Origin: Hydractinia symbiolongicarpus
Taxonomy: Eukaryota > Cnidaria > Hydrozoa > Anthoathecata > Hydractiniidae
Reading direction: 5' to 3'
Assembly (NCBI RefSeq): GCF_029227915.1
Contig: NC_079877.1
Span: forward strand, 4,030,001 to 4,094,000
Length of the DNA: 64,000 bases
The notes beneath the pieces were generated by a model, which saw only the letters and a list, made by a program, of their open reading frames with translations, searched no databases and was not told where the DNA came from. A program made the translations under genes and the position numbers. Numbering within the stretch: position 1 is the stretch's first letter; every line of letters starts with the position of its first letter. This document shows positions 1-64,000 of this stretch, piece by piece.

Positions 1-1022
1 GATAGCCGCAGTCGTCACGTTCTGTTGCCTTGCGCAGACATTTTTCTAACGAAAATTCAACACAAACCAGCAGTAAAAACTTTAAGGATCGCGCATTATG
101 TTATTTTGCGACGAATGTGGAGAGCGTACTTCTATGCTTACCTAGGCGGTGGTAGCACCACGGTCCACTTTGGTTTAGCAATTCACTATAACAACAGCCT
201 TTCTTCTCGCATGCCCGCTTCGTTATGCCTGGATAACCACAATCATGACGTCTTGTTGCTGCTATTTTCCGGCATTTTTCTAAAATTACGGATGGAAGAG
301 TACACAATGCTTTCAAAATACCTAATCAGTAAGAGCGGAACAACTTACCTTGCCTGTAATAACACCACGGTCCCTTTTCCTTGATCGCGTTGTAACAGCA
401 TCCTTTTTTGACGCAATCTGATTTGCTTATCCCAGGGTAACCACAATCTTCACGTTTGTTTGCTTCAATCATGGGACAGTTTGCTAGAGTATTTTGAGAA
501 ATAATTAGTGGCCCAAATTGTCAGTGTTAATGCCGAAAACATAGTCGAAAATTTACCTTTTCGATGATAACACCACGGGCCAGCCACCTTTAATTCGCCA
601 TAACAACATCCCTTTCTCAAGCAATCCAACGGACTAATTCCATGGTAGCCACAATCAACGCGCATTGACGCCTTTATGTTTCGACATTTTGCTATTACGA
701 AACAAATTAGGTAGATTCACAACTAAAATGCAATGACAACCCCCTCAAGTGTAAGAAGCCGTATTACCTCCACATGTGTTGCAAAGCCTTGGGCAATGAC
801 TGGAAACGATTTTCTTTGAACAACTAGTTGATCTAACCACAGAGCACAAGATATTTCTGTTGCTGCAAACTCTTGTAGCTGAAAAATTAAGAACAAATGC
901 AATTTTTTTATTATTGCGACGAAACATTGACGGCAATTGCAATGAAGAAGCATTAAAATACCTGTGGCAGCGGCAAAAGCCAAAACAACAAAACAAATCA
1001 CGTAAATCTGATATTTCCTCAT
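1..1022 (-). CDS. Four-trefoil secreted protein, copy 1 (3' end cut by window edge)
   Basis: Exons on the minus strand are: signal peptide 962-1022, trefoil 1 at 557-691, trefoil 2 at 349-483, trefoil 3 at 142-279, and the first 45 nt of trefoil 4 at 1-45. The remaining 86 nt of the last exon and the stop lie left of the window. The TATA box is at 1084-1090. All visible splice sites are GT-AG. The visible coding sequence is intact. The only exon difference from the consensus is a silent change at position 29 (Lys162, AAA to AAG). The gene is probably functional, but its last exon cannot be assessed here. Confidence 0.83.
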
Positions 1023-1083
1023 GATTCCGGCTCTTATTTCGTCGGTGCGCGAATCGTATTAGTCCAATTCATGTCAAAGCCTT

Positions 1084-1119
1084 CTTTATACGCTCTTTTC
1101 TCTCTAATTACTGTAATTA
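1084..1119 (-). promoter_or_regulatory. Core promoter of copy 1: TATA box plus inverted TAATTA pair
   Basis: On the minus strand a TATAAAG lies at 1084-1090. A start site about 30 nt downstream, near 1060, would give a 5' UTR of about 38 nt. Just upstream, 1105-1119 reads TAATTACTGTAATTA, a perfect 7-bp inverted repeat around one base that holds two TAATTA cores of the kind bound by homeodomain proteins. The same block precedes every copy at a fixed distance; TATA positions are given with each gene. Binding by any factor is inferred, not shown. Confidence 0.65.
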
Positions 1120-1916
1120 ATGAGTGCTTATAATCAAGATGGCCGTTTACAAATTACAACGTAAATTCGCCTCCGGGGAAGATATTGTGCATGTAGCATT
1201 CACCGTTTAAACTCTTGTGGGTTTCGCTTTGAAATATGTTGACACGGTCTATGAAGATCATTGTTGATTGTTGAATAAACGGAAGGTTTTTATCGGAGTG
1301 GTGTAGGACTAGGGTGCACACGAATCACACACGAGTTATTCTTGTCTTCGGTGACCAAACCAACAATTCCCAATCATACATGCGTGTTATACTTTCAAGA
1401 GATCGTTCTTTCGCGGTGAAGGTGATATTCCCTTCAATTTCAATGAATATGAAACAAAAGAGCTAAATTCCATCAGAAGGATGCGTTGCCAATCCTAGAT
1501 CATTGGATTGTTCATTATACGACGTTCTGACAATGTCTTGTTGTTTTAGATAACTCACATGTCGAAACTATTTTTGTTGCGTACTACATCACATCTAGAA
1601 GGTGTCCATTCACACAAGACACGGTCGATTTTGCGGATTTAAGTACCAATACGCGCTGCATCGTGCGCCTTTTTTGTCAGGGATGAAGAGATAAAAAAAA
1701 AGAATTTTCTAATATGCTTCAAAATTTACGTCAACGTAACCCTGTTTTGACAACTAGGGATACGTTTCCCTGTTTAACATGCTATTAACATTTCTTATTA
1801 AGAACAATGCTGGAGATGAGTAGTCGAAATGAAATACGTGCGTTTAAGGTCACTGCTTCAATTGGACGTTAAGTATTTTTATCCCATGACTTTTCATTAA
1901 TGCCCCTGCGCTGTCA

Positions 1917-1924
1917 TTTATATA
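1917..1924 (-). promoter_or_regulatory. Isolated TATA-like element in the spacer
   Basis: The minus strand reads GGG TATATAAA TG here, about 900 bp upstream of the ATG of copy 1, and the same site recurs in each spacer. No convincing ORF follows: the first ATGs give only very short frames. It could start a noncoding transcript or an alternative 5' exon, or be chance in AT-rich DNA. Confidence 0.25.
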
Positions 1925-2896
1925 CCCTCGATAACGGCTTGGTTATAAACGGCACTAGCGGGCCTTATACAGTATTATTTACTGATAGCTATTTTAAATC
2001 AGTATATACGGGAAATCCACAGCACTGATTGGGTAAAAGCCTCAACGACGAGCTTCATACAGCCCGGTGCAATTTTTGACCTTGTAACATACATATTAAT
2101 AACTATAAATGCATACAAATAACATTGGAAAAAATAGCCAAACACATCCACACTGAAAAATGAAGTTGCAGTAAATCCTAAATCACGATTCACTCCGTAA
2201 GAATCAGAAAAACATGTTCCACGTTCGGTGTCGCAGATAAAAGAAAATGCTTTTAAAAACATTAACAGCACAATGAAAAACAAGCAAAACAACGTCGAAT
2301 TTATGTGATAAACATGTATTTGAAAAATTGAAACAATAAAACTCAAATGGAAAGTTCTCTATTTTTTTACAACCTTGTCATCTTACGAGAAATATTACTC
2401 TCGGTCAGCGTAGCGACCTCGCATGTTCGGTCTATGCTTTTGACCTCGCATAAACTTTCTCGGTACAGATAGACAAGTTATTTTATGTTGTATTAATAAC
2501 GCCCGCAAAAGTAGCCTTTTTGTATTTAGATTTATGCTTTCCGTATCCGCCCTGACATTTTTGACTATCAAAATTGTGGCTCCGAATGAGACAGAATTGC
2601 CAAGTTGACAAAGTAGCAAAAAACGGCATTATCCGGTTAATAACGCCTTGGATAGAAATGCTCACGCCACGCTTGCACGGTTGCATTGCGATTCTGGGTA
2701 TGGTGGCGCCAGAAGATTTCAGGCTTTACTAAATAACGCTTACTACTCCTTTCATCAAATACGGACACTCAAGGCACCCTATGCAATAATTCAAATGTGT
2801 TTGGCTGCAGCGACATGACAAAAAGAAAATTGGCAGTCAAATCATTCATCTCCTACTGGATCTTATTGGGAAGGAAAAGTTCATATATTAGAGGTA

Positions 2897-2902
2897 TTTA
2901 TT
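2897..2902 (-). terminator. Polyadenylation signal AATAAA of copy 2
   Basis: The canonical AATAAA on the minus strand starts 142 nt after the TGA stop (3044-3046) of copy 2. The same hexamer is at the same place behind every complete copy; positions are listed with the genes. Cleavage is expected 10-30 nt further on, around 2870-2885. Confidence 0.7.
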
Positions 2903-3040
2903 TGACAACATATTTTTACAACAATGAGTACACTAAAGTTCGCATATAATCTTCCGAAGGTCCTCGTATCTAAACGAAAGGAAGTACATATTAAGCTCGT
3001 GGCCCGAAATGACTTGCTTACAAAAGTGTTCGCGACTTTT

Positions 3041-3046
3041 ACCTCA
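3041..3046 (-). other. Stop codon directly followed by relic-like splice donor (copy 2, all copies alike)
   Basis: The last trefoil exon reads CGA TGA G then GTAAAAGT. The other three trefoil exons end CGA AAA G, AGG CAA G and CGC CTA G, each followed by a used GTAA donor. So the stop occupies the codon just before the splice-phase base, and a donor-like AG|GTAAAAGT survives behind it. The simplest reading is an internal exon that became terminal through a nonsense change. Whether the donor is still used in the 3' UTR cannot be told from sequence. Confidence 0.6.
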
Positions 3047-4151
3047 TCGGTAATAACACCATGGCCCACGACCGGGCAATGAATTATAGCAGCAACCTCT
3101 TTTCATGCATTCGAATTCTGTTATACCAGGATAGCCGCAGTCGTCACGTTCTGTTGCTTTGCGCAGACATTTTTCTAACGAAAATTCAACACAAACCAGC
3201 AGTAAAAACTTTAAGGATCGCGCATTATGTTATTTTGCGACGAATGTGGAGAGCGTACTTCTATGCTTACCTAGGCGGTGGTAGCACCACGGTCCACTTT
3301 GGTTTAGCAATTCACTATAACAACAGCCTTTCTTCTCGCATGCCCGCTTCGTTATGCCTGGATAACCACAATCATGACGTCTTGTTGCTGCTATTTTCCG
3401 GCATTTTTCTAAAATTACGGATGGAAGAGTACACAATGCTTTCAAAATACCTAATCAGTAAGAGCGGAACAACTTACCTTGCCTGTAATAACACCACGGT
3501 CCCTTTTCCTTGATCGCGTTGTAACAGCATCCTTTTTTGACGCAATCTGATTTGCTTATCCCAGGGTAACCACAATCTTCACGTTTGTTTGCTTCAATCA
3601 TGGGACATTTTGCTAGAGTATTTTGAGAAATAATTAGTGGCCCAAATTGTCAGTGTTAATGCCGAAAACATAGTCGAAAATTTACCTTTTCGATGATAAC
3701 ACCACGGGCCAGCCACCTTTAATTCGCCATAACAACATCCCTTTCTCAAGCAATCCAACGGACTAATTCCATGGTAGCCACAATCAACGCGCATTGACGC
3801 CTTTATGTTTCGACATTTTGCTATTACGAAACAAATTAGGTAGATTCACAACTAAAATGCAATGACAACCCCCTCAAGTGTAAGAAGCCGTATTACCTCC
3901 ACATGTGTTGCAAAGCCTTGGGCAATGACTGGAAACGATTTTCTTTGAACAACTAGTTGATCTAACCACAGAGCACAAGATATTTCTGTTGCTGCAAACT
4001 CTTGTAGCTGAAAAATTAAGAACAAATGCAATTTTTTTATTATTGCGACGAAACATTGACGGCAATTGCAATGAAGAAGCATTAAAATACCTGTGGCAGC
4101 GGCAAAAGCCAAAACAACAAAACAAATCACGTAAATCTGATATTTCCTCAT
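3044..4151 (-). CDS. Secreted protein with four trefoil (P-type) domains, copy 2; first complete copy
   Basis: Exons: 4091-4151, 3686-3820, 3478-3612, 3271-3408, 3044-3174, giving 600 nt and 199 aa. Residues 1-21 form a signal peptide with a hydrophobic core (about 5-18) and an A-T-A cleavage motif at 19-21. Four trefoil domains follow, with cysteines at 23/34/44/49/50/61, 68/79/89/94/95/106, 113/124/134/139/140/152 and 159/169/179/184/185/196. This matches the family pattern C-x9/10-C-x9-C-x4-CC-x10/11-C, and each domain has CGY(P/H)GI and GPWCY(H/Y)R. No mucin-like linker, transmembrane segment or other domain is present. Trefoil proteins are known as protease-resistant secreted peptides, often with mucus or lectin-like roles; the role here is an inference. 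The start is the ATG opening the signal peptide, downstream of a TATA box at 4213-4219; AATAAA lies at 2897-2902. Specific to this copy: t3608 changes Asn67 to Lys, the residue at the same place in the other three domains. Confidence 0.88.
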
Positions 4152-6173
4152 GATTCCGGCTCTTATTTCGTCGGTGCGCGAATCGTATTAGTCCAATTCA
4201 TGTCAAAGCCTTCTTTATACGCTCTTTTCTCTCTAATTACTGTAATTAATGAGTGCTTATAATCAAGATGGCCGTTTACAAATTACAACGTAAATTCGCC
4301 TCCGGGGAAGATATTGTGCATGTAGCATTCACCGTTTAAGCTCTTGTGGGTTTCGCTTTGAAATATGTTGACACGGTCTATGAAGATCATTGTCGATTGT
4401 TGAATAAACGGAAGGTTTTTATCGGAGTGGTGTAGGACTAGGGTGCACACGAATCACACACGAGTTATTCTTGTCTTCGGTGACCAAACCAACAATTCCC
4501 AATCATACATGCGTGTTATACTTTCAAGAGATCGTTCTTTCGCGGTGAAGGTGATATTCCCTTCAATTTCAATGAATATGAAACAAAAGAGCTAAATTCC
4601 ATCAGAAGGATGCGTTGCCAATCCTAGATCATTGGATTGTTCATTATACGACGTTCTGACAATGTCTTGTTGTTTTAGATAACTCACATGTCGAAACTAT
4701 TTTTGTTGCGTACTACATCACATCTAGAAGGTGTCCATTCACACAAGACACGGTCGATTTTGCGGATTTAAGTACCAATACGCGCTGCATCGTGCGCCTT
4801 TTTTGTCAGGGATGAAGAGATAAAAAAAAAGAATTTTCTAATATGCTTCATAATTTACGTCAACGTAACCCTGTTTTGACAACTAGGGATACGTTTCCCT
4901 GTTTAACATGCTATTAACATTTCTTATTAAGAACAATGCTGGAGATGAGTAGTCGAAATGAAATATGTGCGTTTAACGTCACTGCTTTAATTGGACGTTA
5001 AGTATTTTTATCCCATGACTTTTCATTAATGCCCCTGCGCTGTCATTTATATACCCTCGATAACGGCTTGGTTATAAACGGCACTAGCGGGCCTTATACA
5101 GTATTATTTACTGATAGCTATTTTAAATCAGTATATACGGGAAATCCACAGCACTGATTGGGTAAAAGCCTCAACGACGAGCTTCATACAGCCCGGTGCA
5201 ACTTTTGACCTTGTAACATACATATTAATAACTATAAATGCATACAAATAACATTGGAAAAAATAGCCAAACACATCCACACTGAAAAATGAAGTTGCAG
5301 TAAATCCTAAATCACGATTCACTCCGTCAGAATCAGAAAAACATGTTCCACGTTCGGTGTCGCAGATAAAAGAAAATGCTTTTAAAAACATTAACAGCAC
5401 AATGAAAAACAAGCAAAACAACGTCGAATTTATGTGATAAACATGTATTTGAAAAATTGAAACAATAAAACTTAAATGGAAAGTTCTCTATTTTTTTTAC
5501 AACCTTGTCATCTTACGAGAAATATTACTCTCGGTCAGCGTAGCGACCTCGCATGTTCGGTCTATGCTTTTGACCTCGCATAAACTTTCTCGGTACAGAT
5601 AGACAAGTTATTTTATGTTGTATTAATAACGCCCGCAAAAGTAGCCTTTTTGTATTTAGATTTATGCTTTCCGTATCCGCCCTGACATTTTTGACTATCA
5701 AAATTGTGGCTCCGAATGAGACAGAATTGCCAAGTTGACAAAGTAGCAAAAAACGGCATTATCCGGTTAAAAACGCCTTGGATAGAAATGCTCACGCCAC
5801 GCTTGCACGGTTGCATTGCGATTCTGGGTATGGCGGCGCCAGAAGATTTCAGGCTTTACTAAATAACGCTTACTACTCCTTTCATCAAATACGGACACTC
5901 AAGGCACCCTATGCAATAATTCAAATGTGTTTGGCTGCAGCGACATGACAAAAAGAAAATTGGCAGTCAAATCATTCATCTCCTACTGGATCTTATTGGG
6001 AAGGAAAAGTTCATATATTAGAGGTATTTATTTGACAACATATTTTTACAACAATGAGTACACTAAAGTTCGCATATAATCTTCCGAAGGTCCTCGTATC
6101 TAAACGAAAGGAAGTACATATTAAGCTCGTGGCCCGAAATGACTTGCTTACAAAAGTGTTCGCGACTTTTACC
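4152..6173. other. Spacer 2, with the most private changes
   Basis: Same layout as spacer 1. Private substitutions at 4340, 4394, 4851, 4966 (CpG to TpG), 4988 and 5473 make it the most diverged spacer noticed. a5771 is shared with spacers 6 and 8. No gene seen. Confidence 0.8.
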
Positions 6174-7281
6174 TCATCGGTAATAACACCATGGCCCACG
6201 ACCGGGCAATGAATTATAGCAGCAACCTCTTTTCATGCATTCGAATTCTGTTATACCAGGATAGCCGCAGTCGTCACGTTCTGTTGCTTTGCGCAGACAT
6301 TTTTCTAACGAAAATTCAACACAAACCAGTAGTAAAAACTTTAAGGATCGCGCATTATGTTATTTTGCGACGAATGTGGAGAGCGTACTTCTATGCTTAC
6401 CTAGGCGGTGGTAGCACCACGGTCCACTTTGGTTTAGCAATTCACTATAACAACAGCCTTTCTTCTCGCATGCCCGCTTCGTTATGCCTGGATAACCACA
6501 ATCATGACGTCTTGTTGCTGCTATTTTCCGGCATTTTTCTAAAATTACGGATGGAAGAGTACACAATGCTTTCAAAATACCTAATCAGTAAGAGCGGAAC
6601 AACTTACCTTGCCTGTAATAACACCACGGTCCCTTTTCCTTGATCGCGTTGTAACAGCATCCTTTTTTGACGCAATCTGATTTGCTTATCCCAGGGTAAC
6701 CACAATCTTCACGTTTGTTTGCTTCAATCATGGGACAGTTTGCTAGAGTATTTTGAGAAATAATTAGTGGCCCAAATTGTCAGTGTTAATGCCGAAAACA
6801 TAGTCGAAAATTTACCTTTTCGATGATAACACCACGGGCCAGCCACCTTTAATTCGCCATAACAACATCCCTTTCTCAAGCAATCCAACGGACTAATTCC
6901 ATGGTAGCCACAATCAACACGCATTGACGCCTTTATGTTTCGACATTTTGCTATTACGAAACAAATTAGGTAGATTCACAACTAAAATGCAATGACAACC
7001 CCCTCAAGTGTAAGAAGCCGTATTACCTCCACATGTGTTGCAAAGCCTTGGGCAATGACTGGAAACGATTTTCTTTGAACAACTAGTTGATCTAACCACA
7101 GAGCACAAGATATTTCTGTTGCTGCAAACTCTTGTAGCTGAAAAATTAAGAACAAATGCAATTTTTTTATTATTGCGACGAAACATTGACGGCAATTGCA
7201 ATGAAGAAGCATTAAAATACCTGTGGCAGCGGCAAAAGCCAAAACAACAAAACAAATCCCGTAAATCTGATATTTCCTCAT
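6174..7281 (-). CDS. Four-trefoil secreted protein, copy 3 (V8G)
   Basis: Exons: 7221-7281, 6816-6950, 6608-6742, 6401-6538, 6174-6304. TATA box 7343-7349, AATAAA 6027-6032. The reading frame is open to the normal stop. A change at 7259 turns Val8 into Gly inside the signal-peptide core. The core stays mostly hydrophobic, so export is probably kept but could be weakened. The change at 6919 is silent (Arg31) and falls on a CpG. Position 6330 differs in intron 4 with no effect on splice sites. Confidence 0.86.
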
Positions 7282-9303
7282 GATTCCGGCTCTTATTTCG
7301 TCGGTGCGCGAATCGTATTAGTCCAATTCATGTCAAAGCCTTCTTTATACGCTCTTTTCTCTCTAATTACTGTAATTAATGAGTGCTTATAATCAAGATG
7401 GCCGTTTACAAATTACAACGTAAATTCGCCTCCGGGGAAGATATTGTGCATGTAGCATTCACCGTTTAAACTCTTGTGGGTTTCGCTTTGAAATATGTTG
7501 ACACGGTCTATGAAGATCATTGTTGATTGTTGAATAAACGGAAGGTTTTTATCGGAGTGGTGTAGGACTAGGGTGCACACGAATCACACACGAGTTATTC
7601 TTGTCTTCGGTGACCAAACCAACAATTCCCAATCATACATGCGTGTTATACTTTCAAGAGATCGTTCTTTCGCGGTGAAGGTGATATTCCCTTCAATTTC
7701 AATGAATATGAAACAAAAGAGCTAAATTCCATCAGAAGGATGCGTTGCCAATCCTAGATCATTGGATTGTTCATTATACGACGTTCTGACAATGTCTTGT
7801 TGTTTTAGATAACTCACATGTCGAAACTATTTTTGTTGCGTACTACATCACATCTAGAAGGTGTCCATTCACACAAGACACGGTCGATTTTGCGGATTTA
7901 AGTACCAATACGCGCTGCATCGTGCGCCTTTTTTGTCAGGGATGAAGAGATAAAAAAAAAGAATTTTCTAATATGCTTCAAAATTTACGTCAACGTAACC
8001 CTGTTTTGACAACTAGGGATACGTTTCCCTGTTTAACATGCTATTAACATTTCTTATTAAGAACAATGCTGGAGATGAGTAGTCGAAATGAAATACGTGC
8101 GTTTAACGTCACTGCTTCAATTGGACGTTAAGTATTTTTATCCCATGACTTTTCATTAATGCCCCTGCGCTGTCATTTATATACCCTCGATAACGGCTTG
8201 GTTATAAACGGCACTAGCGGGCCTTATACAGTATTATTTACTGATAGCTATTTTAAATCAGTATATACGGGAAATCCACAGCACTGATTGGGTAAAAGCC
8301 TCAACGACGAGCTTCATACAGCCCGGTGCAACTTTTGACCTTGTAACATACATATTAATAACTATAAATGCATACAAATAACATTGGAAAAAATAGCCAA
8401 ACACATCCACACTGAAAAATGAAGTTGCAGTAAATCCTAAATCACGATTCACTCCGTCAGAATCAGAAAAACATGTTCCACGTTCGGTGTCGCAGATAAA
8501 AGAAAATGCTTTTAAAAACATTAACAGCACAATGAAAAACAAGCAAAACAACGTCGAATTTATGTGATAAACATGTATTTGAAAAATTGAAACAATAAAA
8601 CTCAAATGGAAAGTTCTCTATTTTTTTTACAACCTTGTCATCTTACGAGAAATATTACTCTCGGTCAGCGTAGCGACCTCGCATGTTCGGTCTATGCTTT
8701 TGACCTCGCATAAACTTTCTCGGTACAGATAGACAAGTTATTTTATGTTGTATTAATAACGCCCGCAAAAGTAGCCTTTTTGTATTTAGATTTATGCTTT
8801 CCGTATCCGCCCTGACATTTTTGACTATCAAAATTGTGGCTCCGAATGAGACAGAATTGCCAAGTTGACAAAGTAGCAAAAAACGGCATTATCCGGTTAA
8901 TAACGCCTTGGATAGAAATGCTCACGCCACGCTTGCACGGTTGCATTGCGATTCTGGGTATGGCGGCGCCAGAAGATTTCAGGCTTTACTAAATAACGCT
9001 TACTACTCCTTTCATCAAATACGGACACTCAAGGCACCCTATGCAATAATTCAAATGTGTTTGGCTGCAGCGACATGACAAAAAGAAAATTGGCAGTCAA
9101 ATCATTCATCTCCTACTGGATCTTATTGGGAAGGAAAAGTTCATATATTAGAGGTATTTATTTGACAACATATTTTTACAACAATGAGTACACTAAAGTT
9201 CGCATATAATCTTCCGAAGGTCCTCGTATCTAAACGAAAGGAAGTACATATTAAGCTCGTGGCCCGAAATGACTTGCTTACAAAAGTGTTCGCGACTTTT
9301 ACC
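7282..9303. other. Spacer 3
   Basis: Matches the consensus spacer; no gene and no diagnostic variant noticed. Confidence 0.75.
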
Positions 9304-10412
9304 TCATCGGTAATAACACCATGGCCCACGACCGGGCAATGAATTATAGCAGCAACCTCTTTTCATGCATTCGAATTCTGTTATACCAGGATAGCCGCAG
9401 TCGTCACGTTCTGTTGCTTTGCGCAGACATTTTTCTAACGAAAATTCAACACAAACCAGCAGTAAAAAACTTTAAGGATCGCGCATTATGTTATTTTGCG
9501 ACGAATGTGGAGAGCGTACTTCTATGCTTACCTAGGCGGTGGTAGCACCACGGTCCACTTTGGTTTAGCAATTCACTATAACAACAGCCTTTCTTCTCGC
9601 ATGCCCGCTTCGTTATGCCTGGATAACCACAATCATGACGTCTTGTTGCTGCTATTTTCCGGCATTTTTCTAAAATTACGGATGGAAGAGTACACAATGC
9701 TTTCAAAATACCTAATCAGTAAGAGCGGAACAACTTACCTTGCCTGTAATAACACCACGGTCCCTTTTCCTTGATCGCGTTGTAACAGCATCCTTTTTTG
9801 ACGCAATCTGATTTGCTTATCCCAGGGTAACCACAATCTTCACGTTTGTTTGCTTCAATCATGGGACAGTTTGCTAGAGTATTTTGAGAAATAATTAGTG
9901 GCCCAAATTGTCAGTGTTAATGCCGAAAACATAGTCGAAAATTTACCTTTTCGATGATAACACCACGGACCAGCCACCTTTAATTCGCCATAACAACATC
10001 CCTTTCTCAAGCAATCCAACGGACTAATTCCATGGTAGCCACAATCAACGCGCATTGACGCCTTTATGTTTCGACATTTTGCTATTACGAAACAAATTAG
10101 GTAGATTCACAACTAAAATGCAATGACAACCCCCTCAAGTGTAAGAAGCCGTATTACCTCCACATGTGTTGCAAAGCCTTGGGCAATGACTGGAAACGAT
10201 TTTCTTTGAACAACTAGTTGATCTAACCACAGAGCACAAGATATTTCTGTTGCTGCAAACTCTTGTAGCTGAAAAATTAAGAACAAATGCAATTTTTTTA
10301 TTATTGCGACGAAACATTGACGGCAATTGCAATGAAGAAGCATTAAAATACCTGTGGCAGCGGCAAAAGCCAAAACAACAAAACAAATCACGTAAATCTG
10401 ATATTTCCTCAT
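9304..10412 (-). CDS. Four-trefoil secreted protein, copy 4
   Basis: Exons: 10352-10412, 9947-10081, 9739-9873, 9532-9669, 9304-9434. TATA box 10474-10480, AATAAA 9157-9162. Intron 4 has one extra A in the run near 9464-9470, so it is 97 bp instead of 96; neither splice site is touched. The change at 9969 is silent (Gly58). The predicted protein equals the array consensus. Confidence 0.87.
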
Positions 10413-12426
10413 GATTCCGGCTCTTATTTCGTCGGTGCGCGAATCGTATTAGTCCAATTCATGTCAAAGCCTTCTTTATACGCTCTTTTCTCTCTAATTA
10501 CTGTAATTAATGAGTGCTTATAATCAAGATGGCCGTTTACAAATTACAACGTAAATTCGCCTCCGGGGAAGATATTGTGCATGTAGCATTCACCGTTTAA
10601 ACTCTTGTGGGTTTCGCTTTGAAATATGTTGACACGGTCTATGAAGATCATTGTTGATTGTTGAATAAACGGAAGGTTTTTATCGGAGTGGTGTAGGACT
10701 AGGGTGCACACGAATTACACACGAGTTATTCTTGTCTTCGGTGACCAAACCAACAATTCCCAATCATACATGCGTGTTATACTTTCAAGAGATCGTTCTT
10801 TCGCGGTGAAGGTGATATTCCCTTCAATTTCAATGAATATGAAACAAAAGAGCTAAATTCCATCAGAAGGATGCGTTGCCAATCCTAGATCATTGGATTG
10901 TTCATTATACGACGTTCTGACAATGTCTTGTTGTTTTAGATAACTCACATGTCGAAACTATTTTTGTTGCGTACTACATCACATCTAGAAGGTGTCCATT
11001 CACACAAGACACGGTCGATTTTGCGGATTTAAGTACCAATACGCGCTGCATCGTGCGCCTTTTTTGTCAGGGATGAAGAGATAAAAAAAAAGAATTTTCT
11101 AATATGCTTCAAAATTTACGTCAACGTAACCCTGTTTTGACAACTAGGGATACGTTTCCCTGTTTAACATGCTATTAACATTTCTTATTAAGAACAATGC
11201 TGGAGATGAGTAGTCGAAATGAAATACGTGCGTTTAACGTCACTGCTTCAATTGGACGTTAAGTATTTTTATCCCATGACTTTTCATTAATGCCCCTGCG
11301 CTGTCATTTATATACCCTCGATAACGGCTTGGTTATAAACGGCACTAGCGGGCCTTATACAGTATTATTTACTGATAGCTATTTTAAATCAGTATATACG
11401 GGAAATCCACAGCACTGATTGGGTAAAAGCCTCAACGACGAGCTTCATACAGCCCGGTGCAACTTTTGACCTTGTAACATACATATTAATAACTATAAAT
11501 GCATACAAATAACATTGGAAAAAATAGCCAAACACATCCACACTGAAAAATGAAGTTGCAGTAAATCCTAAATCACGATTCACTCCGTCAGAATCAGAAA
11601 AACATGTTCCACGTTCGGTGTCGCAGATAAAAGAAAATGCTTTTAAAAACATTAACAGCACAATGAAAAACAAGCAAAACAACGTCGAATTTATGTGATA
11701 AACATGTATTTGAAAAATTGAAACAATAAAACTCAAATGGAAAGTTCTCTATTTTTTTTACAACCTTGTCATCTTACGAGAAATATTACTCTCGGTCAGC
11801 GTAGCGACCTCGCATGTTCGGTCTATGCTTTTGACCTCGCATAAACTTTCTCGGTACAGATAGACAAGTTATTTTATGTTGTATTAATAACGCCCGCAAA
11901 AGTAGCCTTTTTGTATTTAGATTTATGCTTTCCGTATCCGCCCTGACATTTTTGACTATCAAAATTGTGGCTCCGAATGAGACAGAATTGCCAAGTTGAC
12001 GATGTAGCAAAAAACGGCATTATCCGGTTAATAACGCCTTGGATAGAAATGCTCACGCCACGCTTGCACGGTTGCATTGCGATTCTGGGTATGGTGGCGC
12101 CAGAAGATTTACTAAATAACGCTTACTACTCCTTTCATCAAATACGGACACTCAAGGCACCCTATGCAATAATTCAAATGTGTTTGGCTGCAGCGACATG
12201 ACAAAAAGAAAATTGGCAGTCAAATCATTCATCTCCTACTGGATCTTATTGGGAAGGAAAAGTTCATATATTAGAGGTATTTATTTGACAACATATTTTT
12301 ACAACAATGAGTACACTAAAGTTCGCATATAATCTTCCGAAGGTCCTCGTATCTAAACGAAAGGAAGTACATATTAAGCTCGTGGCCCGAAATGACTTGC
12401 TTACAAAAGTGTTCGCGACTTTTACC
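10413..12426. other. Spacer 4, 8-bp deletion haplotype
   Basis: Lacks the 8 bases caggcttt between 12110 and 12111 that most units carry between two ttt runs. Also carries t10716, gat at 12001-12003 and t12095. The deletion opens a plus-strand frame over about 11965-12201, which is closed in most units and is not accepted as a gene. Its twin is spacer 18. Confidence 0.8.
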
Positions 12427-13534
12427 TCATCGGTAATAACACCATGGCCCACGACCGGGCAATGAATTATAGCAGCAACCTCTTTTCATGCATTCGAATT
12501 CTGTTATACCAGGATAGCCGCAGTCGTCACGTTCTGTTGCTTTGCGCAGACATTTTTCTAACGAAAATTCAACACAAACCAGCAGTAAAAACTTTAAGGA
12601 TCGCGCATTATGTTATTTTGCGACGAATGTGGAGAGCGTACTTCTATGCTTACCTAGGCGGTGGTAGCACCACGGTCCACTTTGGTTTAGCAATTCACTA
12701 TAACAACAGCCTTTCTTCTCGCATGCCCGCTTCGTTATGCCTGGATAACCACAATCATGACGTCTTGTTGCTGCTATTTTCCGGCATTTTTCTAAAATTA
12801 CGGATGGAAGAGTACACAATGCTTTCAAAATACCTAATCAGTAAGAGCGGAACAACTTACCTTGCCTGTAATAACACCACGGTCCCTTTTCCTTGATCGC
12901 GTTGTAACAGCATCCTTTTTTGACGCAATCTGATTTGCTTATCCCAGGGTAACCACAATCTTCACGTTTGTTTGCTTCAATCATGGGACAGTTTGCTAGA
13001 GTATTTTGAGAAATAATTAGTGGCCCAAATTGTCAGTGTTAATGCCGAAAACATAGTCGAAAATTTACCTTTTCGATGATAACACCACGGGCCAGCCACC
13101 TTTAATTCGCCATAACAACATCCCTTTCTCAAGCAATCCAACGGACTAATTCCATGGTAGCCACAATCAACGCGCATTGACGCCTTTATGTTTCGACATT
13201 TTGCTATTACGAAACAAATTAGGTAGATTCACAACTAAAATGCAATGACAACCCCCTCAAGTGTAAGAAGCCGTATTACCTCCACATGTGTTGCAAAGCC
13301 TTGGGCAATGACTGGAAACGATTTTCTTTGAACAACTAGTTGATCTAACCACAGAGCACAAGATATTTCTGTTGCTGCAAACTCTTGTAGCTGAAAAATT
13401 AAGAACAAATGCAATTTTTTTATTATTGCGACGAAACATTGACGGCAATTGCAATGAAGAAGCATTAAAATACCTGTGGCAGCGGCAAAAGCCAAAACAA
13501 CAAAACAAATCACGTAAATCTGATATTTCCTCAT
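12427..13534 (-). CDS. Four-trefoil secreted protein, copy 5
   Basis: Exons: 13474-13534, 13069-13203, 12861-12995, 12654-12791, 12427-12557. TATA box 13596-13602, AATAAA 12280-12285. The predicted protein is the array consensus with Asn67, Arg64, Val8 and Gly128. A private change at 13548 lies in the expected 5' UTR, 14 nt upstream of the ATG. Confidence 0.88.
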
Positions 13535-53100: not shown

Positions 53101-54208
53101 TCATCGGTAATAACACCATGGCCCACGACCGGGCAATGAATTATAGCAGCAACCTCTTTTCATGCATTCGAATTCTGTTATACCAGGATAGCCGCAGTCG
53201 TCACGTTCTGTTGCTTTGCGCAGACATTTTTCTAACGAAAATTCAACACAAACCAGCAGTAAAAACTTTAAGGATCGCGCATTATGTTATTTTGCGACGA
53301 ATGTGGAGAGCGTACTTCTATGCTTACCTAGGCGGTGGTAGCACCACGGTCCACTTTGGTTTAGCAATTCACTATAACAACAGCCTTTCTTCTCGCATGC
53401 CCGCTTCGTTATGCCTGGATAACCACAATCATGACGTCTTGTTGCTGCTATTTTCCGGCATTTTTCTAAAATTACGGATGGAAGAGTACACAATGCTTTC
53501 AAAATACCTAATCAGTAAGAGCGGAACAACTTACCTTGCCTGTAATAACACCACGGTCCCTTTTCCTTGATCGCGTTGTAACAGCATCCTTTTTTGACGC
53601 AATCTGATTTGCTTATCCCAGGGTAACCACAATCTTCACGTTTGTTTGCTTCAATCATGGGACAGTTTGCTAGAGTATTTTGAGAAATAATTAGTGGCCC
53701 AAATTGTCAGTGTTAATGCCGAAAACATAGTCGAAAATTTACCTTTTCGATGATAACACCACGGGCCAGCCACCTTTAATTCGCCATAACAACATCCCTT
53801 TCTCAAGCAATCCAACGGACTAATTCCATGGTAGCCACAATCAACGCGCATTGACGCCTTTATGTTTCGACATTTTGCTATTACGAAACAAATTAGGTAG
53901 ATTCACAACTAAAATGCAATGACAACCCCCTCAAGTGTAAGAAGCCGTATTACCTCCACATGTGTTGCAAAGCCTTGGGCAATGACTGGAAACGATTTTC
54001 TTTGAACAACTAGTTGATCTAACCACAGAGCACAAGATATTTCTGTTGCTGCAAACTCTTGTAGCTGAAAAATTAAGAACAAATGCAATTTTTTTATTAT
54101 TGCGACGAAACATTGACGGCAATTGCAATGAAGAAGCATTAAAATACCTGTGGCAGCGGCAAAAGCCAAAACAACAAAACAAATCACGTAAATCTGATAT
54201 TTCCTCAT
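53101..54208 (-). CDS. Four-trefoil secreted protein, copy 18
   Basis: Exons: 54148-54208, 53743-53877, 53535-53669, 53328-53465, 53101-53231. TATA box 54270-54276, AATAAA 52954-52959. No difference from the consensus was seen in exons, introns or TATA box. Confidence 0.88.
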
Positions 54209-56222
54209 GATTCCGGCTCTTATTTCGTCGGTGCGCGAATCGTATTAGTCCAATTCATGTCAAAGCCTTCTTTATACGCTCTTTTCTCTCTAATTACTGT
54301 AATTAATGAGTGCTTATAATCAAGATGGCCGTTTACAAATTACAACGTAAATTCGCCTCCGGGGAAGATATTGTGCATGTAGCATTCACCGTTTAAACTC
54401 TTGTGGGTTTCGCTTTGAAATATGTTGACACGGTCTATGAAGATCATTGTTGATTGTTGAATAAACGGAAGGTTTTTATCGGAGTGGTGTAGGACTAGGG
54501 TGCACACGAATTACACACGAGTTATTCTTGTCTTCGGTGACCAAACCAACAATTCCCAATCATACATGCGTGTTATACTTTCAAGAGATCGTTCTTTCGC
54601 GGTGAAGGTGATATTCCCTTCAATTTCAATGAATATGAAACAAAAGAGCTAAATTCCATCAGAAGGATGCGTTGCCAATCCTAGATCATTGGATTGTTCA
54701 TTATACGACGTTCTGACAATGTCTTGTTGTTTTAGATAACTCACATGTCGAAACTATTTTTGTTGCGTACTACATCACATCTAGAAGGTGTCCATTCACA
54801 CAAGACACGGTCGATTTTGCGGATTTAAGTACCAATACGCGCTGCATCGTGCGCCTTTTTTGTCAGGGATGAAGAGATAAAAAAAAAGAATTTTCTAATA
54901 TGCTTCAAAATTTACGTCAACGTAACCCTGTTTTGACAACTAGGGATACGTTTCCCTGTTTAACATGCTATTAACATTTCTTATTAAGAACAATGCTGGA
55001 GATGAGTAGTCGAAATGAAATACGTGCGTTTAACGTCACTGCTTCAATTGGACGTTAAGTATTTTTATCCCATGACTTTTCATTAATGCCCCTGCGCTGT
55101 CATTTATATACCCTCGATAACGGCTTGGTTATAAACGGCACTAGCGGGCCTTATACAGTATTATTTACTGATAGCTATTTTAAATCAGTATATACGGGAA
55201 ATCCACAGCACTGATTGGGTAAAAGCCTCAACGACGAGCTTCATACAGCCCGGTGCAACTTTTGACCTTGTAACATACATATTAATAACTATAAATGCAT
55301 ACAAATAACATTGGAAAAAATAGCCAAACACATCCACACTGAAAAATGAAGTTGCAGTAAATCCTAAATCACGATTCACTCCGTCAGAATCAGAAAAACA
55401 TGTTCCACGTTCGGTGTCGCAGATAAAAGAAAATGCTTTTAAAAACATTAACAGCACAATGAAAAACAAGCAAAACAACGTCGAATTTATGTGATAAACA
55501 TGTATTTGAAAAATTGAAACAATAAAACTCAAATGGAAAGTTCTCTATTTTTTTTACAACCTTGTCATCTTACGAGAAATATTACTCTCGGTCAGCGTAG
55601 CGACCTCGCATGTTCGGTCTATGCTTTTGACCTCGCATAAACTTTCTCGGTACAGATAGACAAGTTATTTTATGTTGTATTAATAACGCCCGCAAAAGTA
55701 GCCTTTTTGTATTTAGATTTATGCTTTCCGTATCCGCCCTGACATTTTTGACTATCAAAATTGTGGCTCCGAATGAGACAGAATTGCCAAGTTGACGAAG
55801 TAGCAAAAAACGGCATTATCCGGTTAATAACGCCTTGGATAGAAATGCTCACGCCACGCTTGCACGGTTGCATTGCGATTCTGGGTATGGTGGCGCCAGA
55901 AGATTTACTAAATAACGCTTACTACTCCTTTCATCAAATACGGACACTCAAGGCACCCTATGCAATAATTCAAATGTGTTTGGCTGCAGCGACATGACAA
56001 AAAGAAAATTGGCAGTCAAATCATTCATCTCCTACTGGATCTTATTGGGAAGGAAAAGTTCATATATTAGAGGTATTTATTTGACAACATATTTTTACAA
56101 CAATGAGTACACTAAAGTTCGCATATAATCTTCCGAAGGTCCTCGTATCTAAACGAAAGGAAGTACATATTAAGCTCGTGGCCCGAAATGACTTGCTTAC
56201 AAAAGTGTTCGCGACTTTTACC
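54209..56222. other. Spacer 18, twin of spacer 4
   Basis: Carries t54512, g55797, t55891 and the same 8-bp deletion at 55906/55907 as spacer 4, all at an offset of exactly 43,796 bp. No gene accepted. Confidence 0.8.
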
Positions 56223-57330
56223 TCATCGGTAATAACACCATGGCCCACGACCGGGCAATGAATTATAGCAGCAACCTCTTTTCATGCATTCGAATTCTGT
56301 TATACCAGGATAGCCGCAGTCGTCACGTTCTGTTGCTTTGCGCAGACATTTTTCTAACGAAAATTCAACACAAACCAGCAGTAAAAACTTTAAGGATCGC
56401 GCATTATGTTATTTTGCGACGAATGTGGAGAGCGTACTTCTATGCTTACCTAGGCGGTGGTAGCACCACGGTCCACTTTGGTTTAGCAATTCACTATAAC
56501 AACAGCCTTTCTTCTCGCATGCCCGCTTCGTTATGCCTGGATAACCACAATCATGACGTCTTGTTGCTGCTATTTTCCGGCATTTTTCTAAAATTACGGA
56601 TGGAAGAGTACACAATGCTTTCAAAATACCTAATCAGTAAGAGCGGAACAACTTACCTTGCCTGTAATAACACCACGGTCCCTTTTCCTTGATCGCGTTG
56701 TAACAGCATCCTTTTTTGACGCAATCTGATTTGCTTATCCCAGGGTAACCACAATCTTCACGTTTGTTTGCTTCAATCATGGGACAGTTTGCTAGAGTAT
56801 TTTGAGAAATAATTAGTGGCCCAAATTGTCAGTGTTAATGCCGAAAACATAGTCGAAAATTTACCTTTTCGATGATAACACCACGGGCCAGCCACCTTTA
56901 ATTCGCCATAACAACATCCCTTTCTCAAGCAATCCAACGGACTAATTCCATGGTAGCCACAATCAACGCGCATTGACGCCTTTATGTTTCGACATTTTGC
57001 TATTACGAAACAAATTAGGTAGATTCACAACTAAAATGCAATGACAACCCCCTCAAGTGTAAGAAGCCGTATTACCTCCACATGTGTTGCAAAGCCTTGG
57101 GCAATGACTGGAAACGATTTTCTTTGAACAACTAGTTGATCTAACCACAGAGCACAAGATATTTCTGTTGCTGCAAACTCTTGTAGCTGAAAAATTAAGA
57201 ACAAATGCAATTTTTTTATTATTGCGACGAAACATTGACGGCAATTGCAATGAAGAAGCATTAAAATACCTGTGGCAGCGGCAAAAGCCAAAACAACAAA
57301 ACAAATCACGTAAATCTGATATTTCCTCAT
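56223..57330 (-). CDS. Four-trefoil secreted protein, copy 19
   Basis: Exons: 57270-57330, 56865-56999, 56657-56791, 56450-56587, 56223-56353. TATA box 57392-57398, AATAAA 56076-56081. The protein equals the consensus. The gene sits next to the unusual 8-bp-deleted spacer 18 but is itself unaltered. Confidence 0.88.
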
Positions 57331-59352
57331 GATTCCGGCTCTTATTTCGTCGGTGCGCGAATCGTATTAGTCCAATTCATGTCAAAGCCTTCTTTATACG
57401 CTCTTTTCTCTCTAATTACTGTAATTAATGAGTGCTTATAATCAAGATGGCCGTTTACAAATTACAACGTAAATTCGCCTCCGGGGAAGATATTGTGCAT
57501 GTAGCATTCACCGTTTAAACTCTTGTGGGTTTCGCTTTGAAATATGTTGACACGGTCTATGAAGATCATTGTTGATTGTTGAATAAACGGAAGGTTTTTA
57601 TCGGAGTGGTGTAGGACTAGGGTGCACACGAATCACACACGAGTTATTCTTGTCTTCGGTGACCAAACCAACAATTCCCAATCATACATGCGTGTTATAC
57701 TTTCAAGAGATCGTTCTTTCGCGGTGAAGGTGATATTCCCTTCAATTTCAATGAATATGAAACAAAAGAGCTAAATTCCATCAGAAGGATGCGTTGCCAA
57801 TCCTAGATCATTGGATTGTTCATTATACGACGTTCTGACAATGTCTTGTTGTTTTAGATAACTCACATGTCGAAACTATTTTTGTTGCGTACTACATCAC
57901 ATCTAGAAGGTGTCCATTCACACAAGACACGGTCGATTTTGCGGATTTAAGTACCAATACGCGCTGCATCGTGCGCCTTTTTTGTCAGGGATGAAGAGAT
58001 AAAAAAAAAGAATTTTCTAATATGCTTCAAAATTTACGTCAACGTAACCCTGTTTTGACAACTAGGGATACGTTTCCCTGTTTAACATGCTATTAACATT
58101 TCTTATTAAGAACAATGCTGGAGATGAGTAGTCGAAATGAAATACGTGCGTTTAACGTCACTGCTTCAATTGGACGTTAAGTATTTTTATCCCATGACTT
58201 TTCATTAATGCCCCTGCGCTGTCATTTATATACCCTCGATAACGGCTTGGTTATAAACGGCACTAGCGGGCCTTATACAGTATTATTTACTGATAGCTAT
58301 TTTAAATCAGTATATACGGGAAATCCACAGCACTGATTGGGTAAAAGCCTCAACGACGAGCTTCATACAGCCCGGTGCAACTTTTGACCTTGTAACATAC
58401 ATATTAATAACTATAAATGCATACAAATAACATTGGAAAAAATAGCCAAACACATCCACACTGAAAAATGAAGTTGCAGTAAATCCTAAATCACGATTCA
58501 CTCCGTCAGAATCAGAAAAACATGTTCCACGTTCGGTGTCGCAGATAAAAGAAAATGCTTTTAAAAACATTAACAGCACAATGAAAAACAAGCAAAACAA
58601 CGTCGAATTTATGTGATAAACATGTATTTGAAAAATTGAAACAATAAAACTCAAATGGAAAGTTCTCTATTTTTTTTACAACCTTGTCATCTTACGAGAA
58701 ATATTACTCTCGGTCAGCGTAGCGACCTCGCATGTTCGGTCTATGCTTTTGACCTCGCATAAACTTTCTCGGTACAGATAGACAAGTTATTTTATGTTGT
58801 ATTAATAACGCCCGCAAAAGTAGCCTTTTTGTATTTAGATTTATGCTTTCCGTATCCGCCCTGACATTTTTGACTATCAAAATTGTGGCTCCGAATGAGA
58901 CAGAATTGCCAAGTTGACAAAGTAGCAAAAAACGGCATTATCCGGTTAATAACGCCTTGGATAGAAATGCTCACGCCACGCTTGCACGGTTGCATTGCGA
59001 TTCTGGGTATGGCGGCGCCAGAAGATTTCAGGCTTTACTAAATAACGCTTACTACTCCTTTCATCAAATACGGACACTCAAGGCACCCTATGCAATAATT
59101 CAAATGTGTTTGGCTGCAGCGACATGACAAAAAGAAAATTGGCAGTCAAATCATTCATCTCCTACTGGATCTTATTGGGAAGGAAAAGTTCATATATTAG
59201 AGGTATTTATTTGACAACATATTTTTACAACAATGAGTACACTAAAGTTCGCATATAATCTTCCGAAGGTCCTCGTATCTAAACGAAAGGAAGTACATAT
59301 TAAGCTCGTGGCCCGAAATGACTTGCTTACAAAAGTGTTCGCGACTTTTACC
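57331..59352. other. Spacer 19
   Basis: Consensus spacer; no gene. Confidence 0.75.
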
Positions 59353-60460
59353 TCATCGGTAATAACACCATGGCCCACGACCGGGCAATGAATTATAGCA
59401 GCAACCTCTTTTCATGCATTCGAATTCTGTTATACCAGGATAGCCGCAGTCGTCACGTTCTGTTGCTTTGCGCAGACATTTTTCTAACGAAAATTCAACA
59501 CAAACCAGCAGTAAAAACTTTAAGGATCGCGCATTATGTTATTTTGCGACGAATGTGGAGAGCGTACTTCTATGCTTACCTAGGCGGTGGTAGCACCACG
59601 GTCCACTTTGGTTTAGCAATTCACTATAACAACAGCCTTTCTTCTCGCATGCCCGCTTCGTTATGCCTGGATAACCACAATCATGACGTCTTGTTGCTGC
59701 TATTTTCCGGCATTTTTCTAAAATTACGGATGGAAGAGTACACAATGCTTTCAAAATACCTAATCAGTAAGAGCGGAACAACTTACCTTGCCTGTAATAA
59801 CACCACGGTCCCTTTTCCTTGATCGCGTTGTAACAGCATCCTTTTTTGACGCAATCTGATTTGCTTATCCCAGGGTAACCACAATCTTCACGTTTGTTTG
59901 CTTCAATCATGGGACAGTTTGCTAGAGTATTTTGAGAAATAATTAGTGGCCCAAATTGTCAGTGTTAATGCCGAAAACATAGTCGAAAATTTACCTTTTC
60001 GATGATAACACCACGGGCCAGCCACCTTTAATTCGCCATAACAACATCCCTTTCTCAAGCAATCCAACGGACTAATTCCATGGTAGCCACAATCAACGCG
60101 CATTGACGCCTTTATGTTTCGACATTTTGCTATTACGAAACAAATTAGGTAGATTCACAACTAAAATGCAATGACAACCCCCTCAAGTGTAAGAAGCCGT
60201 ATTACCTCCACATGTGTTGCAAAGCCTTGGGCAATGACTGGAAACGATTTTCTTTGAACAACTAGTTGATCTAACCACAGAGCACAAGATATTTCTGTTG
60301 CTGCAAACTCTTGTAGCTGAAAAATTAAGAACAAATGCAATTTTTTTATTATTGCGACGAAACATTGACGGCAATTGCAATGAAGAAGCATTAAAATACC
60401 TGTGGCAGCGGCAAAAGCCAAAACAACAAAACAAATCACGTAAATCTGATATTTCCTCAT
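59353..60460 (-). CDS. Four-trefoil secreted protein, copy 20
   Basis: Exons: 60400-60460, 59995-60129, 59787-59921, 59580-59717, 59353-59483. TATA box 60522-60528, AATAAA 59206-59211. The gene body matches the consensus. Confidence 0.88.
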
Positions 60461-62482
60461 GATTCCGGCTCTTATTTCGTCGGTGCGCGAATCGTATTAG
60501 TCCAATTCATGTCAAAGCCTTCTTTATACGCTCTTTTCTCTCTAATTACTGTAATTAATGAGTGCTTATAATCAAGATGGCCGTTTACAAATTACAACGT
60601 AAATTCGCCTCCGGGGAAGATATTGTGCATGTAGCATTCACCGTTTAAACTCTTGTGGGTTTCGCTTTGAAATATGTTGACACGGTCTATGAAGATCATT
60701 GTTGATTGTTGAATAAACGGAAGGTTTTTATCGGAGTGGTGTAGGACTAGGGTGCACACGAATCACACACGAGTTATTCTTGTCTTCGGTGACCAAACCA
60801 ACAATTCCCAATCATACATGCGTGTTATACTTTCAAGAGATCGTTCTTTCGCGGTGAAGGTGATATTCCCTTCAATTTCAATGAATATGAAACAAAAGAG
60901 CTAAATTCCATCAGAAGGATGCGTTGCCAATCCTAGATCATTGGATTGTTCATTATACGACGTTCTGACAATGTCTTGTTGTTTTAGATAACTCACATGT
61001 CGAAACTATTTTTGTTGCGTACTACATCACATCTAGAAGGTGTCCATTCACACAAGACACGGTCGATTTTGCGGATTTAAGTACCAATACGCGCTGCATC
61101 GTGCGCCTTTTTTGTCAGGGATGAAGAGATAAAAAAAAAGAATTTTCTAATATGCTTCAAAATTTACGTCAACGTAACCCTGTTTTGACAACTAGGGATA
61201 CGTTTCCCTGTTTAACATGCTATTAACATTTCTTATTAAGAACAATGCTGGAGATGAGGAGTCGAAATGAAATACGTGCGTTTAACGTCACTGCTTCAAT
61301 TGGACGTTAAGTATTTTTATCCCATGACTTTTCATTAATGCCCCTGCGCTGTCATTTATATACCCTCGATAACGGCTTGGTTATAAACGGCACTAGCGGG
61401 CCTTATACAGTATTATTTACTGATAGCTATTTTAAATCAGTATATACGGGAAATCCACAGCACTGATTGGGTAAAAGCCTCAACGACGAGCTTCATACAG
61501 CCCGGTGCAACTTTTGACCTTGTAACATACATATTAATAACTATAAATGCATACAAATAACATTGGAAAAAATAGCCAAACACATCCACACTGAAAAATG
61601 AAGTTGCAGTAAATCCTAAATCACGATTCACTCCGTCAGAATCAGAAAAACATGTTCCACGTTCGGTGTCGCAGATAAAAGAAAATGCTTTTAAAAACAT
61701 TAACAGCACAATGAAAAACAAGCAAAACAACGTCGAATTTATGTGATAAACATGTATTTGAAAAATTGAAACAATAAAACTCAAATGGAAAGTTCTCTAT
61801 TTTTTTTACAACCTTGTCATCTTACGAGAAATATTATTCTCGGTCAGCGTAGCGACCTCGCATGTTCGGTCTATGCTTTTGACCTCGCATAAACTTTCTC
61901 GGTACAGATAGACAAGTTATTTTATGTTGTATTAATAACGCCCGCAAAAGTAGCCTTTTTGTATTTAGATTTATGCTTTCCGTATCCGCCCTGACATTTT
62001 TGACTATCAAAATTGTGGCTCCGAAAGAGACAGAATTGCCAAGTTGACAAAGTAGCAAAAAACGGCATTATCCGGTTAATAACGCCTTGGATAGAAATGC
62101 TCACGCCACGCTTGCACGGTTGCATTGCGATTCTGGGTATGGCGGCGCCAGAAGATTTCAGGCTTTACTAAATAACGCTTACTACTCCTTTCATCAAATA
62201 CGGACACTCAAGGCACCCTATGCAATAATTCAAATGTGTTTGGCTGCAGCGACATGACAAAAAGAAAATTGGCAGTCAAATCATTCATCTCCTACTGGAT
62301 CTTATTGGGAAGGAAAAGTTCATATATTAGAGGTATTTATTTGACAACATATTTTTACAACAATGAGTACACTAAAGTTCGCATATAATCTTCCGAAGGT
62401 CCTCGTATCTAAACGAAAGGAAGTACATATTAAGCTCGTGGCCCGAAATGACTTGCTTACAAAAGTGTTCGCGACTTTTACC
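60461..62482. other. Spacer 20
   Basis: g61259 is shared with spacer 6 at an offset of 43,796 bp. Private t61837 and a62026. No gene. Confidence 0.77.
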
Positions 62483-63590
62483 TCATCGGTAATAACACCA
62501 TGGCCCACGACCGGGCAATGAATTATAGCAGCAACCTCTTTTCATGCATTCGAATTCTGTTATGCCAGGATAGCCGCAGTCGTCACGTTCTGTTGCTTTG
62601 CGCAGACATTTTTCTAACGAAAATTCAACACAAACCAGCAGTAAAAACTTTAAGGATCGCGCATTATGTTATTTTGCGACGAATGTGGAGAGCGTACTTC
62701 TATGCTTACCTAGGCGGTGGTAGCACCACGGTCCACTTTGGTTTAGCAATTCACTATAACAACAGCCTTTCTTCTCGCATGCCCGCTTCGTTATGCCTGG
62801 ATAACCACAATCATGACGTCTTGTTGCTGCTATTTTCCGGCATTTTTCTAAAATTACGGATGGAAGAGTACACAATGCTTTCAAAATACCTAATCAGTAA
62901 GAGCGGAACAACTTACCTTGCCTGTAATAACACCACGGTCCCTTTTCCTTGATCGCGTTGTAACAGCATCCTTTTTTGACGCAATCTGATTTGCTTATCC
63001 CAGGGTAACCACAATCTTCACGTTTGTTTGCTTCAATCATGGGACAGTTTGCTAGAGTATTTTGAGAAATAATTAGTGGCCCAAATTGTCAGTGTTAATG
63101 CCGAAAACATAGTCGAAAATTTACCTTTTCGATGATAACACCACGGGCCAGCCACCTTTAATTCGCCATAACAACATCCCTTTCTCAAGCAATCCAACGG
63201 ACTAATTCCATGGTAGCCACAATCAACGCGCATTGACGCCTTTATGTTTCGACATTTTGCTATTACGAAACAAATTAGGTAGATTCACAACTAAAATGCA
63301 ATGACAACCCCCTCAAGTGTAAGAAGCCGTATTACCTCCACATGTGTTGCAAAGCCTTGGGCAATGACTGGAAACGATTTTCTTTGAACAACTAGTTGAT
63401 CTAACCACAGAGCACAAGATATTTCTGTTGCTGCAAACTCTTGTAGCTGAAAAATTAAGAACAAATGCAATTTTTTTATTATTGCGACGAAACATTGACG
63501 GCAATTGCAATGAAGAAGCATTAAAATACCTGTGGCAGCGGCAAAAGCCAAAACAACAAAACAAATCACGTAAATCTGATATTTCCTCAT
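62483..63590 (-). CDS. Four-trefoil secreted protein, copy 21
   Basis: Exons: 63530-63590, 63125-63259, 62917-63051, 62710-62847, 62483-62613. TATA box 63652-63658, AATAAA 62336-62341. The change at 62564 is silent (Gly173). This is the last gene in the window; its promoter region is present but the spacer upstream is cut at 64000. Confidence 0.88.
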
Positions 63591-64000
63591 GATTCCGGCT
63601 CTTATTTCGTCGGTGCGCGAATCGTATTAGTCCAATTCATGTCAAAGCCTTCTTTATACGCTCTTTTCTCTCTAATTACTGTAATTAATGAGTGCTTATA
63701 ATCAAGATGGCCGTTTACAAATTACAACGTAAATTCGCCTCCGGGGAAGATATTGTGCATGTAGCATTCACCGTTTAAACTCTTGTGGGTTTCGCTTTGA
63801 AATATGTTGACACGGTCTATGAAGATCATTGTTGATTGTTGAATAAACGGAAGGTTTTTATCGGAGTGGTGTAGGACTAGGGTGCACACGAATCACACAC
63901 GAGTTATTCTTGTCTTCGGTGACCAAACCAACAATTCCCAATCATACATGCGTGTTATACTTTCAAGAGATCGTTCTTTCGCGGTGAAGGTGATATTCCC
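63591..64000. other. Spacer 21 (partial)
   Basis: Promoter of copy 21 (TATA 63652-63658) and the first part of the spacer, cut by the window edge. Matches the consensus. Confidence 0.75.

Follow-up and report, generated by a model that had tools for sequence, protein, structure and literature searches.

Near-identical tandem arrays are well known for ribosomal RNA (rRNA) genes, histone genes and certain dosage genes, Nv1 among them. A 64,000-nucleotide stretch of the Hydractinia symbiolongicarpus genome (contig NC_079877.1, positions 4,030,001 to 4,094,000; hereafter the window) raises the question of why a gene for a secreted trefoil protein should be arranged in this way. The whole window is a head-to-tail array of units of ~3,130 base pairs (bp), with minus-strand genes predicted to encode a signal peptide, a ShK-like domain and four trefoil domains. 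The reading we favour, with a probability of roughly 0.55, is that this tandem array has spread recently, is homogenised, and supplies a four-site lectin at high dosage. The units would have spread from one founder unit, and unequal crossing-over or gene conversion along the array would keep them alike; the many promoters would give a high dosage of the secreted protein, whose four trefoils would cross-link glycans of the mucus or surface coat.

The regularity of the array was assessed from the recurrence of exact 24-mers, for which the main distance is 3,130 bp, and from a start-codon anchor, which has 21 matches on the minus strand. The 20 spacings between these anchors range from 3,115 to 3,131 bp (exactly 3,130 bp in 14 cases), and the 20 full units, when aligned pairwise, have a mean identity of 99.78% (range 99.52-99.97%). 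The near-identical units of about 3.13 kb described in the initial annotation are therefore borne out, and every one of the 20 differs from the others. Identity stays at 99.77-99.81% over separations of 1-17 units and is 99.70-99.71% in the three pairs separated by 18-19; spacer and gene are near-identical throughout the unit, without clear decay by distance, as in a concerted array. Twenty-one complete genes had been claimed; 21 start anchors are indeed found, but one gene is cut by the window start and 20 are complete. No array edge was seen at either end of the 64-kb window, and the copy number is therefore at least 21.

No second gene was recognised in the ~2 kb of spacer in each unit. Rfam gave no match in window positions 1-7000 at gathering scores, nor in positions 2900-6200 at E values up to 1, and thus no noncoding-RNA gene is recognised as a driver of the array. 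Ten open reading frames selected from the 44 in positions 1-6400 (one overlapping exon 6, the other nine lying clear of the coding exons) had no Pfam match above cut-off, the best being weak at 14.3 and 13.6 bits, and there were no convincing trefoil remnants in the spacer, where non-exon matches all had E values of at least 1.5. Tandem Repeats Finder, with a longest period of 500, returned 0 rows.

Each unit holds six exons and five GT-AG introns of 69-96 bp, all in the same phase as judged from exon lengths, with an AATAAA signal 141 bases past the TGA (Table 1). The initial annotation was right in assigning every copy a TATA box, four trefoil exons, a stop codon and AATAAA: the TATA tag is in all 21 copies, the stop and AATAAA tags number 20 each (the 21st copy is cut before both), and the four trefoils are recovered by Pfam. 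It overlooked the separate ShK-like exon between signal peptide and trefoils, and its description of the gene was to that extent incomplete. Eight of ten splice-site tags are present in 21/21 copies; those for d3 (18/21) and a1 (20/21) fail to match in the remaining copies because of single substitutions, which leave the GT and AG intact. The reading frame is open in 18 of the 20 complete copies, and 11 of the 20 code for an identical majority protein. An apparent frameshift in copy 18 was rejected as an artefact of fixed offsets, caused by one extra base in intron 5; its coding sequence carries one synonymous change. In all units the TGA stands where the final codon ahead of the usual splice junction would be; a donor-like sequence follows directly (window 2970-3044), as if the gene may once have run on into a further exon.

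Protein products were sought in a collection of 5.77 billion sequences, which gave six matches from 62 candidates. The two closest are from H. symbiolongicarpus. P0001, named 'trefoil factor 2-like', has 154 amino acids and 8 member sequences and matches 63% of the query at 99% identity; P0002 has 132 amino acids and 2 members and matches 43% of the query at 100%. P0002 carries the isoform label X1, which by annotation practice may hint at transcript support. One valine of P0001 is coded by none of the 21 window copies (GCG for alanine in 20, GCA in one), which places at least one further predicted gene copy outside the window. Trefoil-domain proteins of the red algae Cyanidium caldarium and Cyanidiococcus yangmingshanensis (P0005 and P0006) also match the query, at E values of about 1e-5.

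Four stretches match the trefoil family PF00088, at 170.4 bits (cut-off 21; E 6.3e-51), for a query that contained one extra Gly. Human trefoil factors are described as divalent lectins for N-acetylglucosamine-alpha-1,4-galactose (GlcNAc-alpha-1,4-Gal), contacted through one Asp/Asn and one Trp side chain (PMC7221086). These residues align with Asp115 and Trp142 of P0001, for trefoil 2 aligned on TFF1. The P0001 model matches human TFF3 and TFF1 with a probability of 0.99 but E values of 0.07-0.12. All four trefoils have the Asp before the second cysteine and the Trp before the last cysteine (GPWC), and every coding variant among the copies leaves both untouched. The frog protein xP4 likewise has four trefoils, is bound to mucin and has been proposed as a mucin cross-linker (PMC6929139). 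Given the conserved Asp and Trp in four domains and the xP4 precedent, the gene most likely encodes a secreted lectin with four binding sites, which the many copies would supply at high dosage. A further paper, PMC3531485, was set aside because it concerns the beta-trefoil fold, which differs from the trefoil domain.

Exon 2, searched alone, matches the Pfam ShK family PF01549 at 21.6 bits (cut-off 20.9; E 3.3e-4), and none of nine shuffled exon 2 peptides (five with cysteines in place, four without) matches any family. The ShK-like part had no match among Protein Data Bank (PDB) sequences at E values up to 10. Among similar-length proteins with shared exact words, residues 1-60 of P0001 retrieved only the two Hydractinia proteins. 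Multi-trefoil proteins of Pocillopora, Porites, Dendronephthya, Rhopilema, Oculina and Acropora resemble the product in having two to four trefoils (7/7 scanned), but none of the seven has a ShK match at E values up to 1, nor has the one tunicate protein scanned with them (0/8 in all). A ShK-like domain followed by four trefoils thus appears to be an architecture not met elsewhere in the proteins compared. Frog xP4 shares the four trefoils and the secretion; it differs in being encoded by two genes in an allotetraploid frog, and the parts of PMC6929139 consulted mention neither an array nor a ShK-like domain.

Variants among the 20 units are mostly private: of 54 substitutions (35 transitions and 19 transversions), 43 occur in one unit only, 6 in two and 5 in three, and there are four insertion or deletion (indel) events, none coding. 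Tajima's D over units, an allele statistic here applied to paralogues, is -2.24. Variants are as dense in exons (14/711 sites) as elsewhere (40/2,419 sites; P 0.62). The 13 shared variants, which include two indels, form 78 pairs, 9 of which fail the four-gamete test, so variants are shared in mosaic fashion. The distance between copies sharing a variant is no different from that of randomly drawn copies (the mean was equal to or below the one observed in a fraction of 0.49 of random draws), and because sharing is independent of distance, local block duplication as the sole process is ruled out. The variation fits a recent spread from one unit together with exchange between units along the array, and part of the mosaic sharing could stem from recurrent mutation or misordered assembly.

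Two copies, 3 and 17 (gene starts 57330 and 13534), are 14 units apart and have in common an 8-bp deletion and three substitutions, with one difference between them, which points to exchange over a long range, to copying of a block or to a unit placed wrongly. Copy 5 (gene start 51078) has a private 15-bp spacer deletion. There is no sign of methylation decay in CpG content (observed/expected 1.16, no depletion); transitions are somewhat more frequent at CpG (9 in 276 sites) than at other C/G sites (17 in 947).

Counted across the 21 copies, nonsynonymous variants number 8 (8.8 under a neutral expectation derived from the noncoding rates of the 20 units), synonymous variants 5, one of them confined to the cut copy (2.9 expected), and stop variants 2 (0.7 expected); binomial tests give P 0.37 for protein changes and 0.20 for stops. 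The initial annotation had offered selection for high dosage or very recent amplification as explanations. Recent amplification or homogenisation stands, on the private variants, the negative D and the even density in exons and noncoding sequence, whereas dosage selection gains no support from coding variants that fit neutrality. Over a longer period the picture is different: when the trefoil exons of a single gene are compared with each other, differences affect 77-89% of synonymous sites versus 24-28% of nonsynonymous sites, a contrast that is a lower bound because the synonymous sites are saturated. From this excess, the four trefoils, including those absent from the annotated proteins, are judged to have diverged long ago and to have been long under purifying selection.

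Table 1 Features of the array, in window coordinates (strand as read in the window).
Feature	Position	Strand	Basis or remark
Array interior	1..64000	-	~3,130-bp units; 20 complete gene copies and one cut
Gene copies 1-10, start codons	63590, 60460, 57330, 54208, 51078, 47963, 44833, 41703, 38573, 35443	-	
Gene copies 11-19, start codons	32313, 29184, 26054, 22924, 19794, 16664, 13534, 10412, 7281	-	
Representative gene, copy 20, ATG to TGA	3044..4151	-	
Gene copy cut by window start, start codon	1022	-	
TATAAA	4214..4219	-	68 bp upstream of ATG; tag in 21/21 copies
Exon 1, signal peptide	4091..4151	-	Translation; signal peptide judged by eye
Exon 2, six-cysteine ShK-like domain	3897..4007	-	Pfam PF01549 on exon alone
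Exon 3, trefoil domain 1	3686..3820	-	Pfam
Intron 3	3613-3685	-	Example from copy 20
Exon 4, trefoil domain 2	3478..3612	-	Pfam
Intron 4	3409-3477	-	Example from copy 20
Exon 5, trefoil domain 3	3271..3408	-	Pfam
Exon 6, trefoil domain 4 and stop codon	3044..3174	-	Pfam
Candidate intron in 3' untranslated region, 73 bp	2970..3042	-	GT...AG reading; begins one base past stop codon
AATAAA signal	2897..2902	-	Tag in 20/20 copies reaching that far
Nonsense change, copy 11, start of trefoil 2	31742	-	
Nonsense change, copy 14, end of trefoil 2	22254	-	

How far the array resembles systems already described was examined in the literature. The initial annotation knew of no array like this one, and among the matches listed for papers pairing trefoil with cnidarians, Hydractinia or arrays there is no trefoil array (most subscription papers and all supplements were beyond reach); the portions of PMC11876637 consulted likewise hold nothing on this gene. 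The build itself is known, both from noncoding RNAs of Hydractinia (PMC11067881) and from Nv1 (PMC9842752). In the sea anemone Nematostella vectensis, the sodium-channel toxin gene Nv1 has 1-24 diploid copies, with copy number correlated with expression; 14 of 18 copies of the family are 99% alike, and concerted evolution has been proposed and partly questioned (PMC9842752). Like the trefoil array, the Nv1 cluster consists of near-identical tandem genes for a secreted cysteine-rich product in a cnidarian. It encodes a different protein, its diploid copy range contrasts with at least 21 copies in 64 kb here, and dosage and population variation are reported for it. The H. symbiolongicarpus assembly also contains tandem arrays of rRNA, small nuclear RNA, U3 and transfer RNA genes (PMC11067881), which are similar in build, but the trefoil unit is protein-coding and has no Rfam match in the stretches searched. 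The evolutionary mode is already known; the trefoil gene content seems new.

Several observations weigh against a high-dosage four-site lectin. The secreted protein is a prediction from DNA. P0001, with two trefoils, runs on into intron 4, P0002, with one, into intron 3, and a full-length four-trefoil protein of H. symbiolongicarpus is absent both from the six matches above and from the best 120 of 124 matches in a second search (7,992 candidates scored). Nonsense codons interrupt 2 of the 20 complete copies, and no present-day purifying selection on the copies is visible against the neutral expectation, the small counts of coding variants ruling out strong constraint only. In longer proteins the exon 2 region scores 15.6-17.3 bits against PF01549, under the cut-off, and the predicted domain is for this reason named ShK-like rather than ShK; its modelled structure is poor (predicted local distance difference test, pLDDT, under 50; mean 56.9 when modelled alone). 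Finally, the reading presumes that hydroids carry glycans of the kind bound by vertebrate trefoil factors.

Some of these points suit a competing explanation that we consider possible although clearly less probable, namely that the array is a large satellite that happens to hold a gene, grown by unequal exchange without benefit in an array-prone genome, one or a few copies perhaps being functional. The two broken copies, the neutral-looking and evenly dense exon variation and the tandem arrays reported elsewhere in the assembly (PMC11067881) are all in its favour, whereas the 18 open copies, the intact TATA, splice and poly(A) signals and the confinement of all four indel events to noncoding sequence are not. 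This intactness is weak evidence against a satellite, because very recent neutral spread would look alike. An error of assembly, in which a single locus was wrongly multiplied or its units wrongly ordered, is very improbable. Near-identical units are hard to order, the evidence consists of assembled sequence, and a scrambled order would also make variant sharing independent of distance. However, all 20 full units are distinct, and the 8-bp deletion recurs with three linked changes in copies 3 and 17. Long-read errors are indel-rich, in contrast to the 35 transitions, 19 transversions and only four indel events seen here. The 8 members of the public protein cluster also argue against an error, though they may derive from the same assembly and so not be independent.

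It is also conceivable, but unlikely, that the locus is a venom-type dosage array like Nv1, in which the ShK-like head would make the product a toxin or toxin-like and copy number would make it dominant. The match of exon 2 on its own to ShK favours this; ShK domains also occur in non-venom secreted proteins, however, and trefoils make up most of the protein. The Nv1 precedent, with its correlation of copy number and expression (PMC9842752), speaks for such an array, as does the ending of the annotated models in introns, intron retention being named for a Nematostella neurotoxin in the title of a work cited by PMC3509713. Against this, ShK and trefoil are both among the domains treated as markers of extracellular proteins (PMC8260672), and in the main text of a Hydractinia venom paper 'trefoil' is absent and ShK is mentioned once (PMC8917316). 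The favoured reading of a recently spread, homogenised lectin array has a more speculative extension, to which we give little weight: that the array is a dosage device for a lectin whose valency is set by splicing, retention of intron 3 or 4 giving one or two trefoils behind the ShK-like head and full splicing giving four.

If valency were indeed set by splicing, the many near-identical promoters would allow a hydroid to cover its surface abundantly with lectins of a selected valency. A trefoil array would in any case add a product of mucosal-lectin type to the genes known in arrays, in a host genome for which other arrays, their significance unclear, have already been reported. It would allow a direct question: is it dosage that maintains such arrays, or do they arise as side products of a genome prone to forming them? 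In clonal colonies copy number could be compared with expression to address this.

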